NCBI GenBank assembly: GCA_024648695.1
Contig: JACAVV010000013.1
Span: 1 to 41,050, forward strand
Source of the DNA: Nitrospina sp.
Lineage (GTDB): Bacteria > Nitrospinota > Nitrospinia > Nitrospinales > JACRGP01
Direction of reading: 5' to 3'
Length of the DNA stretch: 41,050 nt
This document shows, piece after piece, positions 218 through 13,812 of the stretch; position 1 is the first letter of the stretch, and the number at the start of each line of letters is the position of its first letter. The translations under genes and the position numbers were made by a program. Below the pieces are notes generated by a model. That model was not told the origin of the DNA. It did not search any database and worked only from the letters and a program-made list of their open reading frames with translations.

Positions 218-871
218 ATGGAAACATATACGTCCCTCATTGAAGATACCAGAGACTTTGTAAAGAAAGAACTGGAAAACGACGCTTCCGGTCACGATTG
301 GTGGCATATTTTCAGAGTGTGCAACACGGCCAAAACCATAGCCCAGTCCGAGAGCGCGGATCTGACAGTGGTTGAACTGGCCGCGCTTTTGCACGATATC
401 GGCGACTGGAAATTCCATAACGGGGATGAAAGTGTGGGTCCCGCAAAAGCCTCCAAATGGCTGGTTGAAAACGATGTTCCTGACGCCATTATTTGCGCCG
501 TTTGCGACATCATTAAAACCCTGTCCTTTAAAGGAGCCAACGTCGCCACACCCATGTCGACCCTGGAAGGCAAGGTCGTGCAGGATGCCGACCGTCTGGA
601 TGCCATTGGCGCTATGGGAATCGCCCGTGCTTTTGCTTACGGGGGACACCACAACCGGTTGATTTACCATCCCGATCAGCCACCCGAACTGCACGATTCG
701 TTTGAAAAGTATAAAAGCAACAAGGGGCATTCGATCAATCATTTTTACGAAAAGCTCCTTCTACTGAAGGATCGTATGAATACAACCACCGGTAAGGCCA
801 TGGCGGAAGAACGCCACCAGTTCATGGAGCAGTATTTAAACCAGTTTTTTAAGGAATGGGATGGACACTGA
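218..871 (+). CDS. HD-domain phosphohydrolase (YedJ/YpgQ-like)
   Basis: A 217-residue soluble protein of the HD metal-dependent phosphohydrolase superfamily. The family pattern is visible: an N-terminal GHDWWHIFRV motif supplies the first His, HDIGDWKF supplies the His-Asp pair, and QDADRLDAIGAMGIARAF supplies the distal Asp and helix. This arrangement matches YedJ/YpgQ, for which B. subtilis YpgQ is a described nucleotide pyrophosphohydrolase; the substrate here is inferred at most. An in-frame TTG at 164 would add 18 residues, but homology in this family begins close to the ATG at 218, so that start is preferred; neither has a strong ribosome-binding site. Its stop overlaps the start of the sirtuin gene by 11 bases, implying co-translation. 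Confidence 0.85.
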   Translation: METYTSLIEDTRDFVKKELENDASGHDWWHIFRVCNTAKTIAQSESADLTVVELAALLHDIGDWKFHNGDESVGPAKASKWLVENDVPDAIICAVCDIIKTLSFKGANVATPMSTLEGKVVQDADRLDAIGAMGIARAFAYGGHHNRLIYHPDQPPELHDSFEKYKSNKGHSINHFYEKLLLLKDRMNTTTGKAMAEERHQFMEQYLNQFFKEWDGH

Positions 872-1682
872 AGAGCTGTTAAAAAGGTCGGCGGAACTGA
901 TATCAGAAGCGGGCCGGATTTTGTTCCTTACCAGTGCAGGAATGAGCGCCGACTCCAACATTCCCACGTTTCGGGACAAAGACGGTTATTGGCGGAACTT
1001 TCCTCCATTCAAGGAAAAAGGTTTGGAAGCGCAGGATCTGGCAAGTCCCTGGGCCTTTCGCAACGAACTCCCCCATGCCTGGGCGTTTTACGAGTGGCGA
1101 AGAAGGAATGCACACGAAAACCAGCCGCACGAGGGTTATCATATTCTCAACCGGTGGATTGCGGAATTTGCACAGGAGGGGTTTATACATACCACCAATA
1201 CTGATGGCTTTCACCTTCTCTCAGGTTGCAACCCGGACAGCGTGAAGGAAGTCCACGGATCCATGTGGCGTTTGCAATGCCTGGATGCATGCTGTTACGA
1301 GTTTTGGGACGATACCACGGTTCCCCTTTGCGAACTGAACCACGACACCATGATGGCTTCGGATTATCCTTTGTGTCCGCATTGCGGAAGCATTGCCCGT
1401 CCCCACATCCTGATGTTCGGAGACGGGGAATATGTGGGGCACTCCGAACAAGACCGTAACTTCAAACGGTTCCTGCAATTTCCCATTGATCTTGCAATCC
1501 TTGTGGGAAGTTCCGGGATGGTACCCACCAATGATTACATCGCCCTGCAGTTAAAGCAATCCGGCACCCAACTGATAAACATCAATCCTGACCCCTCGAC
1601 TAATTCCATCGCCAGTGCGGAATTGTTTTTACCTTTAAAAAGCCTGGAAGCTTTTCAAACTTTGGATAATTTAATAGGTTAA
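861..1682 (+). CDS. divergent Sir2-family NAD-dependent deacylase
   Basis: A 273-residue sirtuin-fold protein expected to use NAD+ to remove acyl groups from lysine or to transfer ADP-ribose. The NAD-binding segment reads TSAGMSADSNIPTFRDKDGYW, a variant of the usual GAGxSxxSGIPxFR. The catalytic region reads TTNTDGFHLLSG followed by EVHGSMW, which keeps the catalytic His and a variant of the QNxDxLH motif. Cysteines near residues 135-140 plus CPHCG form a plausible zinc site, and VGSSGMVPTND matches the later NAD-contacting loop. It is translationally coupled to the preceding HD hydrolase. The substitutions (Gly to Ser in the first motif, Gln-Asn-Ile to Thr-Asn-Thr) place it away from classical CobB, so the reaction is uncertain. 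Confidence 0.82.
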   Translation: MDTEELLKRSAELISEAGRILFLTSAGMSADSNIPTFRDKDGYWRNFPPFKEKGLEAQDLASPWAFRNELPHAWAFYEWRRRNAHENQPHEGYHILNRWIAEFAQEGFIHTTNTDGFHLLSGCNPDSVKEVHGSMWRLQCLDACCYEFWDDTTVPLCELNHDTMMASDYPLCPHCGSIARPHILMFGDGEYVGHSEQDRNFKRFLQFPIDLAILVGSSGMVPTNDYIALQLKQSGTQLININPDPSTNSIASAELFLPLKSLEAFQTLDNLIG

Positions 1683-5813: not shown

Positions 5814-7118
5814 TTGGACGAGTCATTTTTACCCCGTCTGATCATATTATTTGTCTTGTTGGTTTTATCCGCTTTTTTTGCGGCCTGCGAAGCGGCCTTT
5901 TTCTCTTTGAGCTCAATTCAGCTCAACTCCTTAAAAGAGTCTCAGGGGCGTCGCGGTTTACTGGTGAATGATCTTTTAGCGCACCCCAAAGACCTCCTGA
6001 TTACAATTTATATTGGCAACGAGGTGGTCAATGTCGCTGTGGCGGCGGTAACAACCTCCATTGCATTAAAGATTTTTGGAAACTCCGGGGTTGCTATTGC
6101 CATCGGCCTGGGAACTTTTTTGATCCTGTTATTTGGCGAAATTGTGCCAAAGACATTGGCCTTGAAGTTTTCCGAGTCCTACGCCCTGTCCTCTGCCTTT
6201 CCGCTCCACATTTTTTCCAGAGTGGTCCAGCCCATCCAAAGGTTGTTCAGTCGCATTGCCGGCTCTCTTATTACCCTATTGGGAATCAACACTACGGCTC
6301 CCATCAAATATGGCATGACGGAACAGGAGTTCCGCACCCTTGTAGAACTTGGCGAGGGTGAAGGGGTGTTACATGCAGAAGAGCGTGAAATGATCCATAA
6401 TGTCATCGAATTCGGAGACACTACGGCGGGTGAAATCATGACTCCTAAAATTGACATGTTTACCATTTCTGCCGAGGAAGAAATGGAAGAAATTTTGCCA
6501 CAGATAATGAAGAATTTTTACTCCCGCGTCCCCGTAATCGACCAGGATGGAGAATCCATTGCCGGAATTTTGTACACCAAGGATCTGAACCGCCACAAGA
6601 ACCTGCCCAGGGAAAAGTTTAAATTAAAAAGTATATTGCACCCTGCCCTCTTCATTCCAGAGTCCAAAAAAATCAAAGAACTTCTGGATGAATTCAAAAA
6701 ACAAAAGAAGCATTTAGCCATTGTTTTGGATGAATATGGAAGCGTTTCCGGTCTGGTCACTCTCGAAGATATCGTCGAAGAGCTGGTTGGGGAAATTGAC
6801 AGCGAAATGCGAATGGAGTCAGATAACATCACTCAAGTTAACAGCACCACCTATAACCTCTCATCAAAATGCAGTCTTTCGGAGTTCAACAGCCAATTCA
6901 GTTCGGAGTTGCCAGAAAAGGATTTTGATACGGTAGGCGGCTTTGTGTTCGACCTGTTTGGAAGGGTTCCCCGGTTTGGCGAAACGGCAACTCATGGAAA
7001 TTTTAAATTCCAGATCCAAAAAATGAAAGGGCCGCGTATCATGGCCGTGCAATTATCGTTGCTGAACCATGAGGCTCCGTCGGAAGTACCAAAACCTAAC
7101 GAAGAGGTTCCAAGCTGA
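5814..7118 (+). CDS. CNNM/CorC-type membrane protein with CBS pair (first of two)
   Basis: A 434-residue inner-membrane protein of the HlyC/CorC (CNNM) family, implicated in Mg2+ and other divalent-ion homeostasis. Residues 1-160 hold hydrophobic segments with the DUF21 signature (FFAACEAAFFSLSSIQL, then GEIVPKTLAL). Residues about 205-330 are a CBS pair, including GEIMTPKIDMFTI and LDEYGSVSGLVTLEDIVEELVG. The C-terminal transporter-associated domain contains the usual DTVGGFVF block. The start is a TTG at 5814, because no ATG or GTG occurs nearby and the membrane domain begins immediately; GGGGG 13 bases upstream is a poor ribosome-binding site. Its TGA overlaps the next gene's ATG by one base. 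Confidence 0.9.
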   Translation: MDESFLPRLIILFVLLVLSAFFAACEAAFFSLSSIQLNSLKESQGRRGLLVNDLLAHPKDLLITIYIGNEVVNVAVAAVTTSIALKIFGNSGVAIAIGLGTFLILLFGEIVPKTLALKFSESYALSSAFPLHIFSRVVQPIQRLFSRIAGSLITLLGINTTAPIKYGMTEQEFRTLVELGEGEGVLHAEEREMIHNVIEFGDTTAGEIMTPKIDMFTISAEEEMEEILPQIMKNFYSRVPVIDQDGESIAGILYTKDLNRHKNLPREKFKLKSILHPALFIPESKKIKELLDEFKKQKKHLAIVLDEYGSVSGLVTLEDIVEELVGEIDSEMRMESDNITQVNSTTYNLSSKCSLSEFNSQFSSELPEKDFDTVGGFVFDLFGRVPRFGETATHGNFKFQIQKMKGPRIMAVQLSLLNHEAPSEVPKPNEEVPS

Positions 7119-8380
7119 TGGATCTTGGTTCCACATTGCTTTGGGTGGGTATTTGTATTTTATTTGAAGCATTTTTCTCCGGCACCGAGCTTGCCGTCAT
7201 TTCACTCAACCGGGTGAACATTCAAAAAAAAGCCGATGAGGGCAATACCTCCGCTCAAAAAGTCCAGGAACTTTTAAAAAATCCGGAACGGATTTTTTCC
7301 ACAACCTCTCTTGGAACCAATCTTGCCGTCGTTACCAGCACTTCATTATTTGCGGCGTTCATGGTGAATCAGTTCGCTGAAAAAGGGGATATGTACGCCA
7401 CCCTGATTTTATCGCCGATCATTCTTTTCGGAGGAGAAATTGTCCCCAAATTGATTGTAAGCAACCGGGCCAATTCCACAATCCTGGTCTTAGTTCACCC
7501 GCTAAATTTCTTCTGTAAAATTTTTACTCCGGTGTTAAAAGTTTTTGGATTTTTCACCGAATTGCTCCTGAAACCTTTCAAGGGTCTGACAGAGTACAAA
7601 AACCCCCTGTTCAGCAGAGACCAGATTCAACAGGTGGTGGGACCCGGTTCCCAATCTACTGATCTGGGAGTGGTCGAACGCAAGATCATTCATAAAATTT
7701 TCAATTTTGGTGAAATCACCGTCGAGCAATGCATGGTGCCCCTGGTCCAGGTGGTGGCCATCAAAGACACAGCCACTCTCGAAGAATCACATGAACTGGC
7801 CAACTCTTCCGAGTATTCCCGGCTCCCGGTTTTCCATGAACGTATGTTCAATATGACCGGTATATTGAACACCTTCGATTTAATCAACCTTCCGATCGAT
7901 AACACACCCATCACCAACCTCATTCGACCGGCCTATTACGTCCCTCCCAACAAAAAGATTGACGGCCTGCTAAAGGGCCTTCAAAAAAGGGGACTGCACA
8001 TGGCAATTGTCGTGGATGAGTATGGGGGATGTATCGGCATTATCACCATTGAGGATGTGCTTGAGGAAATCGTTGGAGAAATTGAAGACGAGTTTGATAA
8101 ACCTGAGAAACTCTATAAACCTTACTCTGATGGGGGCTATTTGATTGATGGGGAAATGGGGATTGATTCGATCAATGAGGATCTGGGATTAAATCTTCCC
8201 AAGGGAGACTACGAAACGTTAGGGGGCTTGATCATTGAAAAGCTGGAAAAAATTCCCTCCCCCGGTGAACAGGTAACGGTGGAAGGCTATCGGCTCACTG
8301 TAAAAGATACAAGTAAGCGAAAAATCAACTCCATCATTGTTCGCGAAATAAAAAACAATGGTAACCAGGACGCCGGGTAA
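7118..8380 (+). CDS. CNNM/CorC-type membrane protein with CBS pair (second of two)
   Basis: A 420-residue paralogue of the preceding gene with the same order of parts. It has a DUF21 membrane domain ([16 protein letters not shown] at the N-terminus, [10 protein letters not shown]), a CBS pair ([13 protein letters not shown] and [22 protein letters not shown]), and a C-terminal domain with [20 protein letters not shown]. The ATG lies inside the TGA of the upstream gene (TGATG), a classic coupling arrangement, so the two proteins are probably made in fixed ratio and may form a heteromer. The sequences differ enough to be an old duplication. The ion handled cannot be told from sequence. Confidence 0.9.
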
Positions 8381-8400: not shown

Positions 8401-9132
8401 CTACAACCCCCGTTTTTTTTCCAGTTCGCGATAAGCCGATTGAATTTCCAAAAATTTCACGTGGGCCTGTTCAGCAAGATCCGCTCCCAAATGGGAAACG
8501 GTGTCCGGATGATATTCTCTTGCCAATTGGCGGTAGGCCTTACGTATTTCCGTATCAGAGGCCGATGAAGTCAGGCCCAGGACACTATAGGGCGTTTTCA
8601 GGAGGAACAAACCGTATTTGTCGCGTATTCGGTTATGATCATCATAAGAAACCCCCAGCGCATCGGACAACGTTTTCAGGTCTTTTTGCAAATCTTCATT
8701 TAAGCGGGTTTCTGATGTTCCTACCAGTGCAACCTGGTAAGCAAGCCCCAATAACAGGATGAGGTACAAATTTCCACTGGCTTGGCGATATTGGGTTACC
8801 AGGGGCTCAATTGCCGGATTCACTCTTTGTGTTTCGCGAATAATAGTTGAAATTTGTTGGGAGCCATCTTCCTTCACTCCAAGGTTTTTCTCCAGGAATC
8901 GAAAAATGATATTCGATTCCAGGGACGTCACCCCCCCTTTAGATTTAGCGATTCGGCTTAATAAAGCAACCAGCGAAAATACAAACATAGGCCTGTTTTT
9001 CAGTCCCGGAAGATTTTTATTGAATACCTTTGCCCATTTTTTGGACGCAAAATGTTCAATCGCTCCACCTACAATGGCTCCTAAGGGACCTCCCCGAAGG
9101 AAACCCAAACCTGCTCCAACCCACCAGGACAT
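8401..9132 (-). CDS. DjlA-like membrane co-chaperone (TerB-like plus J domain)
   Basis: A 243-residue protein with a Gly-rich hydrophobic N-terminus ([20 protein letters not shown]) of the kind that anchors DjlA in the inner membrane. A helical TerB/DjlA-like middle covers about residues 50-165. A C-terminal J domain covers about 180-243 and contains the [12 protein letters not shown] motif with intact HPD, which stimulates DnaK. The order anchor-TerB-J is that of DjlA. It converges on the CNNM pair with only 20 bases between the stops and no clear terminator. The J-domain call is firm; the DjlA name is from architecture. Confidence 0.85.
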
Positions 9133-9977: not shown

Positions 9978-9990
9978 AGGAGAACAGAGG

Positions 9991-10779
9991 GTGACCAAAA
10001 AAAAAGTTTCATCAAAAAAGAAGGCCAAAGCTTCCAAATCTGCCCCCAAAAAGATTCAATCGGTTAGCAAACCAAAGGCCAAAAAAGCCACTCCCAAAAA
10101 ACCGGCCACAAAAAAATCCGCTTCCAAAGTCAAGTCGGTAAAAAAGGTATCTGCAAAACCGGCACGACCCAAAGCCAAGACGACTAAAAAGGTTACTGCC
10201 AAAAAAGCGGTTAAAGCGAAGGCAAAAAAAGCCGCACCCTCTAAAAAGAAAGTTGTTTCAAAAACCAAAAAGACCGCACCAAAAACCAAACAAAAAGCAG
10301 TAAAGAAAAAAGCGGTCAAGGCAAAGGTTAAAACAACAAAAACCACGGTCAAAAGCAAAAAGAAAACGGTTCCTGCCAAATCGGTCAAAAAACAAGTTAA
10401 ACCGGCCGTAAAATCAACAAAGCCTCAAAAAAAAATGGACCCGGCAATCGAGAAGATACGGAACAAACTGCTCAATAGCCGCCGGGAGCTTTTTGAAATG
10501 CTGGCTTCGTCCCAGGAAATGGAACGCAGTTTGAGCGAATTGAACTTTTCAAATGAAATTGATCTGGCCTCCAGTCTGGAGGGGCGGGAAATGGTGTTTC
10601 AATTGGCAAGCCGCGACCGCAATGAGTTGCGTTTGATCGACGAAGCTCTATTTCGAATCTCCAACGAAACTTACGGAATTTGCGAAAGCTGTGGAAAAAA
10701 TATTTCTGCTAAACGACTGCAAATCATGCCCCTGACCCCCTATTGTATCGAATGCCAGGAGTCCATGGAACATTCCTGA
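9991..10779 (+). CDS. histone-H1-like tail fused to a DksA/TraR zinc finger
   Basis: A 262-residue protein in two parts. Residues 1-148 are almost entirely Lys, Ala, Pro, Ser, Thr and Val in KKA/KPK-like patterns, as in bacterial histone-H1-like DNA-binding tails. Residues 149-262 are a DksA/TraR-type module: a helical hairpin (IEKIRNKLLNSRRELFEML, and a tip containing EIDLAS) and a four-Cys zinc finger CESC-x17-CIEC. DksA-type proteins bind the secondary channel of RNA polymerase; the basic tail would add DNA or RNA affinity. The start is GTG at 9991 after CAGGAGAACAGAGG. A run of nine A at codons 2-5 is a possible slippage site. It converges with secA only eight bases away. Whether it acts on polymerase or mainly on the nucleoid is open. 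Confidence 0.85.
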   Translation: MTKKKVSSKKKAKASKSAPKKIQSVSKPKAKKATPKKPATKKSASKVKSVKKVSAKPARPKAKTTKKVTAKKAVKAKAKKAAPSKKKVVSKTKKTAPKTKQKAVKKKAVKAKVKTTKTTVKSKKKTVPAKSVKKQVKPAVKSTKPQKKMDPAIEKIRNKLLNSRRELFEMLASSQEMERSLSELNFSNEIDLASSLEGREMVFQLASRDRNELRLIDEALFRISNETYGICESCGKNISAKRLQIMPLTPYCIECQESMEHS

Positions 10780-10787
10780 CCCAGGGT

Positions 10788-13352
10788 TCAGGAACTCCCA
10801 TGACATTTTTTATATTTCTTGCCGCTTCCACAAGGGCAGGGATCATTTCTTCCCACTTTCTTTTCTTCGCGTCTAACGGTAGCCGGTTTGGAGCTTTCTC
10901 CTGATTCTCCCCGATGTTCGATAAATTGTGGTTGGCTAGGAACGGTTTCCTCCACTTGAGCCAACTCCCGCTCTACCTTGATTCTGAAAATAAATTCGGT
11001 GGTTTCCTCGCGAATACGGTGGGTCATCTGCTGAAACATTTCGAACCCTTCCTTCTTGTATTCAGTGAGAGGATTCTTTTGAGCATAACCACGGAGTCCA
11101 ATTCCCTCCTTGAGGTGGTCCATAGCCAGGAGATGGTCTTTCCATAAATTGTCCAAAACCTGCAACAGGATCATCTTACCTACACCCTGAAACGTTTCGC
11201 TACCAATCTCGGCTTCTTTTTCGTTCAAAATGCGCTCGATTTCATCCAAAATGGTGTCGTGCAACTGATCGCGGTTACAATGTTCCAGTTCCAATGGTGC
11301 TTTATCATTGACCACCAATTCCTTGTCATCAACCTTTTGGATACGAATGCCCGAAAACTGCCTTTCCAGAAAATCATTCAGCTCATCGATGTCCCATTCC
11401 TCGGGATAAACTTTTTCGTGGCACACATCATGTAACTTTTCTCCAAGCACCTCATCGGCCATTTCCAACAGCATGTCCTTCTGGTTTTCACCGGATAAAA
11501 TTTCCCGGCGCATGGCGTAGATCACCTCGCGCTGGCGGTTCATGACGTCATCAAACTCCAGAAGGTGTTTACGAATATCGAAATGATGGGCCTCGACTTT
11601 GGATTGCGCATTGGCTACTGCCTTTGAAACCATGTTATGTTCGATTGGCTGGCCTTCATCCATGCCCAATCGGGCCATCAACCCGGATATCTTGTCGGAA
11701 CCGAAAATCCGGAGTAAATCGTCTTCCAGAGACAGGAAGAAGCGGGACGATCCTGGATCACCCTGCCGTCCGGAACGACCACGCAACTGATTGTCGATGC
11801 GCCTTGATTCATGACGCTCGGTTCCTAGAATATGCAATCCACCCAAATCTGGAACCCCCTCTCCCAACACGATATCGGTACCGCGGCCGGCCATATTGGT
11901 CGCAATGGTCACTGCACCTTTTTGGCCCGCCTGGGCAATGATCTCAGCTTCTTTTTCATGATGTTTGGCGTTGAGGACATTGTGTTTGATTCCGAATTTT
12001 TTTAAATGCCGGCTCAACTTTTCAGAAGTTTCAATAGAAATGGTGCCCACCAGTATCGGTTGCCCTGTCGCATGAATCTCCCGGATCTCTTCCATAACAG
12101 CATCGAACTTTTCTTTCTCCGTTCGGTATATGACATCCGGAAAATCCTCACGAATCATATTCATATTGGTGGGAACCACGACCACTTCCAGGCCATAGGT
12201 GGATTGAAACTCCGCCGCTTCTGTGTCGGCGGTACCTGTCATCCCTCCCAGCTTGTTATACATTCGAAAATAGTTCTGGAAAGTGATGCTGGCCAGGGTC
12301 TGGTTTTCGTTTTCAATGGTTACACCTTCTTTTGCCTCAAGCGCCTGATGCAAGCCATCACTGTAGCGCCTGCCGGTCATCATCCTTCCTGTAAACTCAT
12401 CGATGATAACCACCTGCCCATCCTTGACCACATAGTCCACCTCGTTTTTCTTCATCATGTGCGCCATCAGGGCCTGGTTGACATGATGAAGGATTTCAAT
12501 ATTGGATGGATCATACAAATTTTCCACATTCAGCAAACTCTCTACCTTGGCCACTCCTTCATCAGTAAGCACCACGGTTTTTGCTTTTTCATCCATCAGG
12601 CAATGCTCTTTTTTGTTGAGTTTGGGAATGATGGCGTTGACCGTATAATATTTATCTGTCGACTCCTCGGCAGGACCGGAAATGATCAAAGGCGTACGTG
12701 CTTCGTCGATCAGAATGCTGTCAACCTCATCCACAATCGCAAAGTTCAATTCGCGTTGAACAAATTGCTCTTGCGAAAACTTCATATTGTCGCGAAGGTA
12801 ATCAAAACCAAACTCGTTGTTGGTTCCATATGTCACATCGCAGGCATAGGCTTCCTTTCTCTCCTCTTCAGTCATATCGTGGTAAATATTACCCACCGTT
12901 AAGCCCAAAAACTTATAGATCGTTCCCATCCAATCCGCATCACGTCGCGCAAGGTATTCATTAACCGTGACGACATGGACTCCCTTTCCGGAAATCGCGT
13001 TCAAATACACAGGGAGAGTCGCCATCAGGGTTTTACCTTCACCGGTTTTCATTTCTGCGATTTTGCCTTCATGTAAAACCACTCCACCTATCAACTGAAC
13101 GTCGAAATGTCGCATCTTAAGCGTTCTGACACTGGCTTCGCGAACGGTTGCAAAAGCCATAGGTAAAAGTTCATCCAAAGAAGTCCCATTTTTAAAGGAT
13201 TCCTTAAATTCCGCGGTCTTGGCCTGCAATTGCTCATCGCTCAAGTCTTTAACGGATGCTTCCAATTCGTTGACCTGGTCCACATATTCCTGAATGCGTT
13301 TTAATTCCCGGTCATTGCGGGTGCCAAAAAATTTTTTAACGATTCCAAACAT
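10788..13352 (-). CDS. secA: preprotein translocase ATPase SecA
   Basis: An 854-residue SecA, the motor that pushes preproteins through SecYEG. It has [16 protein letters not shown] (Walker A), the [25 protein letters not shown]-like box, [15 protein letters not shown] and [15 protein letters not shown] from the second helicase domain. It ends in the zinc- and SecB-binding tail [13 protein letters not shown]. Length is usual. The ATG at 13352 gives the family-typical N-terminus [17 protein letters not shown]; an in-frame TTG two codons upstream is less likely. It stands downstream of a long spacer on the same strand as the M23 peptidase gene and converges with the H1-like/DksA gene. Confidence 0.97.
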
Positions 13353-13812
13353 AGCCAACCTATGGTTTGATCATTTCAATGATTATTTCGAGTTTCCCAT
13401 TTTACCAATTCGCTTATTCTTCAATGACCAAAATACGTAAGGTCTCAGCAAGGCAAAAGGCACACTCATTCTCAATTGGGATTATTTTATTCCCCCGTTT
13501 CACCGGGATTACAATGCATTAAATAATTGTACAGAGCCACTCCAGTTGCCTGAAGTTAATGAAGTCCTGGAGTATAAAAGGGATAGGTAGATTACCAGTG
13601 AAATTCCATCCAAACAAACAAAAAGCCTTTGATTATTTATCCCCCAAACAAAGGCGTCCGGCCCTGCATTCAGGGCCGGAATTTTGGTAAATAATTAAAG
13701 GCGTTTTTTATTCAAACAAGTTTCCTGGCTTTCCCCAAGTGTTGATTTATCCGAACAGGATACACGGGAAGGAATCAGGTTTCCACATTAAAATAGAAGC
13801 CTGAAAACTGGA
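13353..13812. other. intergenic region between the M23 peptidase and secA
   Basis: About 460 bases without a convincing gene; both flanking genes are on the minus strand. It should hold the secA promoter and the end of the M23 transcript. One strong hairpin is listed separately. I see no RNA gene. Confidence 0.4.
13657..13680 (-). terminator. strong GC hairpin, probable terminator of the M23 gene
   Basis: Perfect ten-base arms TCCGGCCCTG and CAGGGCCGGA flank a four-base loop about 130 bases past the M23 stop codon. Only a weak T-rich stretch follows on either strand, so efficiency is uncertain; a structured site in the spacer is the alternative. Confidence 0.45.

Follow-up and report, generated by a model that had tools for sequence, protein, structure and literature searches.

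A histone H1-like lysine-rich tail on a DksA-type protein of Nitrospinota suggests a DNA-tethered RNA polymerase secondary-channel factor

Introduction

Myxobacterial CarD joins a polymerase-binding domain to a disordered, DNA-binding tail rich in Lys, Ala and Pro, which in Anaeromyxobacter is histone H1-like and lacks AT-hooks (PMC9304148). The CarD tail can be replaced by human HMGA, by histone H1 or by the H1 C-terminal region (PMC8156234), and the tail-less protein retains a low activity (PMC4374960). The KPAA tails of AlgP and PhaF have likewise been reported, or are thought, to bind DNA, and AlgP is found in association with polyphosphate granules, whose spacing it determines (PMC9239181).

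For the DksA family, the residues that matter are known from E. coli DksA. The D71N/D74N protein still binds polymerase and is defective in the control of initiation, while R91A weakens and N88I strengthens the binding of RNA polymerase (PMC10746185). K98 and R129 touch ppGpp at site 2, and their alanine variants retain the binding of polymerase and lose that of ppGpp (PMC7676912). Our literature search yielded neither the effect of D71N by itself nor a paper on a DksA with a Lys-rich tail.

Here we describe a DksA-like gene with a long, Lys-rich N-terminal tail, found in a 41,050-nucleotide stretch of DNA from Nitrospina sp. (hereafter the window), together with its relatives. The host order (Nitrospinota) consists of marine and groundwater bacteria, marine nitrite oxidisers among them. 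From sequence, structural model and analogy, we read the product with moderate confidence as an H1-tailed, DNA-tethered secondary-channel factor of the DksA family that would act independently of ppGpp site 2.

Results

The tailed gene and its orthologues

The gene, its parts and its downstream neighbour are laid out as follows.

9991–10779, plus strand: tailed DksA-like gene, 262 aa, GTG start, TGA stop
9978–9982, plus strand: Shine-Dalgarno site AGGAG, 8 nt 5' of the GTG, read directly
9991–10434, plus strand: tail, residues 1–148, rich in Lys, Ala, Pro, Thr, Ser and Val, disordered, of histone H1-like composition
10435–10662, plus strand: DksA-type helical hairpin, residues 149–224, helices 151–184 and 189–224 (AlphaFold, Foldseek)
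10549–10575, plus strand: hairpin-tip motif FSNEIDLAS, in which Asn corresponds to E. coli D71, Asp to D74 and Ala to A76
10669–10773, plus strand: four-cysteine DksA/TraR zinc finger, Cys231, 234, 252 and 255 (PF01258, E 6.6e-13)
10788–13358, minus strand: secA, convergent, a conserved downstream neighbour given for context and outside the system

An AGGAG or GGAG-type site also lies 5' of the chosen start in most orthologues. A separate tail-less product from an internal start is unlikely, the in-frame ATG at 10435, just 5' of the domain, having no Shine-Dalgarno site; its position is occupied by Leu in most orthologues. The original prediction had proposed a Lys/Ala/Pro tail of about 148 residues followed by a DksA-type domain with a helical hairpin and a four-Cys finger. 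Both parts were borne out, with the tail at residues 1–148 and the domain at 149–262, and with PF01258, the AlphaFold fold and the Foldseek matches agreeing on the hairpin and finger.

The named relatives at 65–75% domain identity are all Nitrospinota MAGs, several of them called Nitrospinaceae. The gene was present in 54 of the 64 sampled genomes of the order, and most genomes without it are incomplete. Near-complete copies numbered 49, among them L022, which a contig end truncates, and L082, which has Ns in its tail; L062 and L063 are further copies that start at contig ends inside the Lys-rich tail. That close relatives had lost the tail had been named in advance as evidence that would count against the prediction; this was not seen, since every readable copy of the order has the tail.

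Fold and family of the DksA-type domain

The window protein scored 48.9 bits against PF01258 (cut-off 24.9, E 6.6e-13), and a Pfam scan of this protein and 29 relatives gave DksA-type families only, with no CarD_CdnL_TRCF domain. In an AlphaFold model, run on a 30-member alignment, the hairpin helices and the finger have pLDDT values of about 87–96 (about 90–96 for the hairpin apart from its tip) and the tip of 68–75. The best Foldseek match was P. aeruginosa DksA2 (4ijj, E 9.3e-7, TM 0.78 of the target), with further matches to E. coli DksA (1tjl) and to RNA-polymerase-bound DksA chains (7khi and 5vsw). By sequence, the solved relatives were those of Agrobacterium (2kq9), P. aeruginosa (DksA2, 4ijj), E. 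coli (DksA, 1tjl) and Chlamydia (6ptg). E. coli DksA is without such a tail, and the solved chains matched here span just 72–151 aa.

The NCBIfam DksA equivalogs TIGR02420 and NF033459 were both missed (68.7 against a cut-off of 115.5, and 83.5 against 105, respectively). By these profile tests the protein belongs to the DksA/TraR superfamily, yet is not to be called DksA. In three orthologues (L057, L058 and L059) the finger is longer by five residues, inserted between its two Cys pairs.

Residues at polymerase and ppGpp contact positions

Residue states were taken from an alignment of the 49 orthologues to E. coli DksA. D74, A76, R91 and all four finger cysteines are invariant (49/49), and the FSNEIDLAS tip, together with D74, A76 and R91, belongs to the least variable parts of the protein. 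At the position of E. coli D71 all 49 tailed orthologues have Asn, giving a tip of NxxDxA rather than the canonical DxxDxA; the sister families f5 and f7 (see below) retain Asp there. N88 is Leu, and L95 is Glu or Gly, in every one of the 49; K98 and R129 are replaced in 48 and K139 in 44. From the ppGpp site-2 set (R91, L95, K98, R129 and K139), R91 alone is retained throughout.

Together with the E. coli mutant data, this pattern of conserved and lost residues suggests that polymerase binding is likely kept and that ppGpp site 2 is likely absent. Moreover, because the residue at 71 is Asn and E. coli D71N/D74N is defective, the regulatory output may differ from that of DksA. The protein thus resembles DksA, DksA2 and TraR (E. 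coli DksA, P. aeruginosa DksA2) in its hairpin and C4-finger fold and in D74, A76 and R91, and departs from DksA at position 71, at ppGpp site 2 and in its sub-cut-off equivalog scores.

Locus and sister families

In nearly all orthologous loci inspected, a block is conserved that comprises an AIRS-type gene, two CNNM/CorC genes, a DnaJ-domain gene, a Dabb gene, the tailed DksA-like gene and secA, with the DnaJ-domain gene on the opposite strand and secA convergent; the G014/L069 locus retains the secA side only. The two CNNM/CorC-type genes stand adjacent and in tandem (window 5814–8380) and are kept with the block across the order. The DnaJ domain is C-terminal in a 243-aa protein (window 8401–9132, minus strand), whose gene is at the corresponding position in most loci inspected across the order. 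The neighbours were considered as a clue to function and set aside, the block being conserved but housekeeping-like, with nothing specific. For this chromosomal, syntenic locus a plasmid or phage origin was rejected, as tblastn gave only DksA/TraR matches of less than 60% identity covering less than half of the query.

Nearly every Nitrospinota locus inspected, those of the tail-less family f7 among them, has an adjacent, convergent secA. This family, from another order of the same class, has a DksA-like protein of about 120 aa with no tail, and its gene adjoins convergent secA in both loci that extend far enough to show the neighbour. In family f5, from another neighbouring order, the Lys-rich tail is 77 aa long and the gene has other neighbours. 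A tree with few columns, and many forks without resolution, groups f5, f7 and the window's order (96/85) and places f5 outside f7 and the window's order. As read from the sequences, the tail was either gained once and then lost in f7, or gained twice.

Tailed relatives in Desulfobacterota

Other phyla were reached through the genomes of earlier matches, and Desulfobacterota were sampled in depth (118 genomes); G081 also falls in this phylum. Several DksA-like proteins among these 118 genomes have Lys-rich N-terminal tails, and most relatives are without. The tailed set (L098/L116, L099/L113, L114, L103, L106/L129, L109/L139 and L118) is like the window protein in that a K/A/P-rich tail stands N-terminal to a DksA-type domain. 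Unlike those of the window's order, the tails are mostly shorter (about 57–127 aa in L116, L113, L114, L118, L129 and L139, and less in others) and patchy, with tailed and tail-less forms intermixed on a tree of the same few columns and many forks without resolution; in the tips that were read, the D71 position is Asp, not Asn. The window's order is therefore not alone in having this architecture, which was found fixed only there. Among L098, L099, L103, L106, L109, L113–L118, L129 and L139, most have an acidic C-terminal extension besides the Lys-rich tail.

Other candidate genes in the same genome

The window's genome encodes three DksA-type proteins, one of which has the tail. The two other PF01258 genes are short and tail-less, on G000:C22 (128 aa, with a canonical DxxDxA tip) and on G000:C3 (112 aa). 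The latter (L003, G000:C3:55307-55405) is very divergent and without a DxxDxA tip. A short, divergent DksA-type gene is also found in most relatives, and the role of this short paralogue may be a different one. With the tail as query, no second H1-like gene was found in the genome; five HU/IHF-type genes are ordinary open frames of 100–122 aa.

Composition and selection of the Lys-rich tail

The 148-residue tail of the window protein is 41% Lys, with a net charge of +62 and no Asp or Glu. Among the 49 near-complete orthologues, tails are 100–205 aa long (median 124) and 29–49% Lys, and have a net charge of +37 to +84, against −7 to +2 for the domains, so that chance does not account for the tail. 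Taken across all 49, the composition is 41% Lys, 15% Ala, 7% Pro and 1.3% Arg, with hardly any Gly or aromatic residues. The AlphaFold model shows no secondary structure in the tail (block pLDDT about 43–53, higher in the last few residues). A long, disordered, K/A/P-rich and Arg-poor basic region is thus present, as in Anaeromyxobacter CarD and in AlgP and PhaF.

CarD of Myxococcus and Anaeromyxobacter is similar in design, a polymerase-binding domain being joined to an H1/HMGA-like tail, but its domain (CarD_CdnL_TRCF, on the beta subunit) is unrelated, its tail is C-terminal and it works with CarG. AlgP and PhaF of Pseudomonas have a modular, H1-like KPAA tail on another domain, where it is thought to be a DNA tether; they differ in their partner domain, which serves polyphosphate or PHA granules, and in a C-terminal tail with regular KPAA repeats. 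By analogy, these precedents support a tether, and with the composition they suggest that the tail would bind DNA.

Lys-rich disordered tails bind RNA and polyphosphate too, which counts against a DNA tether. A tail that bound RNA or ribosomes (the nascent transcript or rRNA) in place of DNA would couple the factor to transcripts or to translation. Its net charge of +37 to +84 and its disorder would suit any polyanion, and the tail is modelled to begin at the hairpin base, outside the secondary channel. However, a Lys/Ala/Pro composition with 1.3% Arg and few Gly or aromatic residues is H1-like rather than RGG-like, and the DNA-binding precedents of CarD and AlgP/PhaF are of comparable composition; we regard an RNA-binding tail as unlikely. 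That the tail binds polyphosphate, or drives condensates such as granules or polymerase clusters, with DNA contact secondary, is suggested by AlgP, whose comparable KPAA tail is found on polyphosphate granules (PMC9239181). The conserved neighbourhood showed no polyphosphate gene, however, and the partner domain comes from a polymerase-factor family, so that we find this quite improbable.

Tail sequence and length drift fast between species, the 49 tails sharing a composition and not a sequence, and in close pairs the tail outpaces the domain (dN 0.07–0.48 against 0.02–0.05). This drift, the tail-less f7 and the patchy tails of Desulfobacterota would fit a low-complexity expansion that does little more than provide solubility or charge. 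On the other hand, every readable copy in the order has the tail, at constant charge and composition, TRF detected no tandem repeats in the DNA of the window tail, and dN is below dS in every close pair with a computable dS (dS being saturated in several pairs); we give such an expansion little credence. The tailed gene is a coding sequence under selection, and dN below dS despite the fast change argues that composition and charge are kept, and not the exact sequence.

A slippage artefact as the origin of the tail was rejected on the absence of tandem repeats (TRF, window copy) and on dN below dS. SPKK-type minor-groove motifs were also tried, and their number (23 across 49 related tails, against 12.9 in shuffles, sd 3.4; one in the window tail) was too weak to be of use. 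A Sir2-family deacylase gene lies about 8 kb upstream (window 861–1682) and is not closely linked to the tailed gene; it prompted the thought that the Lys-rich tail could be acylated.

Discussion

As a DNA-tethered secondary-channel factor, the protein would insert its hairpin into the RNA polymerase secondary channel, with the tip near the active site, as its fold and R91, D74 and A76 suggest. The tail would exit at the hairpin base, opposite the tip, and so emerge outside the polymerase and its secondary channel, to judge from the topology of the model and from known DksA complexes. There it could grip nearby DNA electrostatically, through Lys-phosphate contacts and with no sequence specificity. 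Tethering of this kind would raise the local concentration of the factor on the nucleoid and at promoters, and would bias its action to DNA-bound polymerase. We infer the joint effect of DNA and polymerase binding, and independence from ppGpp, from these separate parts. The original prediction, which joined the holding of DNA by the tail to contact of the finger with polymerase, is to this extent partly supported.

Since none of the order's readable copies lacks the tail, it probably ties transcription control to the DNA mass. Likewise, the loss of the ppGpp site-2 residues and the Asn at 71 indicate that the protein probably acts as a modulator that is constitutive or under some other control, and not as a ppGpp-potentiated stringent-response DksA. 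Family f7 speaks against a tether, as it manages without a tail in the same secA-side locus. That the DksA-like part is inactive on RNA polymerase, and the protein a nucleoid-packing one with a borrowed fold, would agree with the Asn at D71, the lost ppGpp site-2 residues and the sub-cut-off equivalog scores, but is highly improbable, as the constancy of D74, A76, R91 and FSNEIDLAS is unexpected for a mere scaffold.

Beyond the tethered factor itself, a wider reading is offered tentatively, and as a whole we doubt it somewhat. It would hold that these are lineage-defining, nucleoid-tethered factors, the order having fused an H1-like tail to the DksA fold and changed the tip to NxxDxA; that a chromatin-type factor modulates polymerase without ppGpp site 2, while the short paralogue covers other DksA-type roles; and that the tailed factor is convergent with CarD, perhaps with more than one origin in Desulfobacterota.

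If a DNA-tethered factor is indeed what the gene encodes, a single small protein would serve both in packing the nucleoid and in controlling polymerase throughout an entire bacterial order. The design of CarD, in which an H1-like tail is added to a domain that binds polymerase, would then have evolved again on an unrelated factor; by analogy the logic would be that of CarD, with a putative DNA-binding tail on an unrelated domain that probably binds polymerase. The natural, order-wide change of D71 to Asn offers, in addition, a test of the role of that tip residue.
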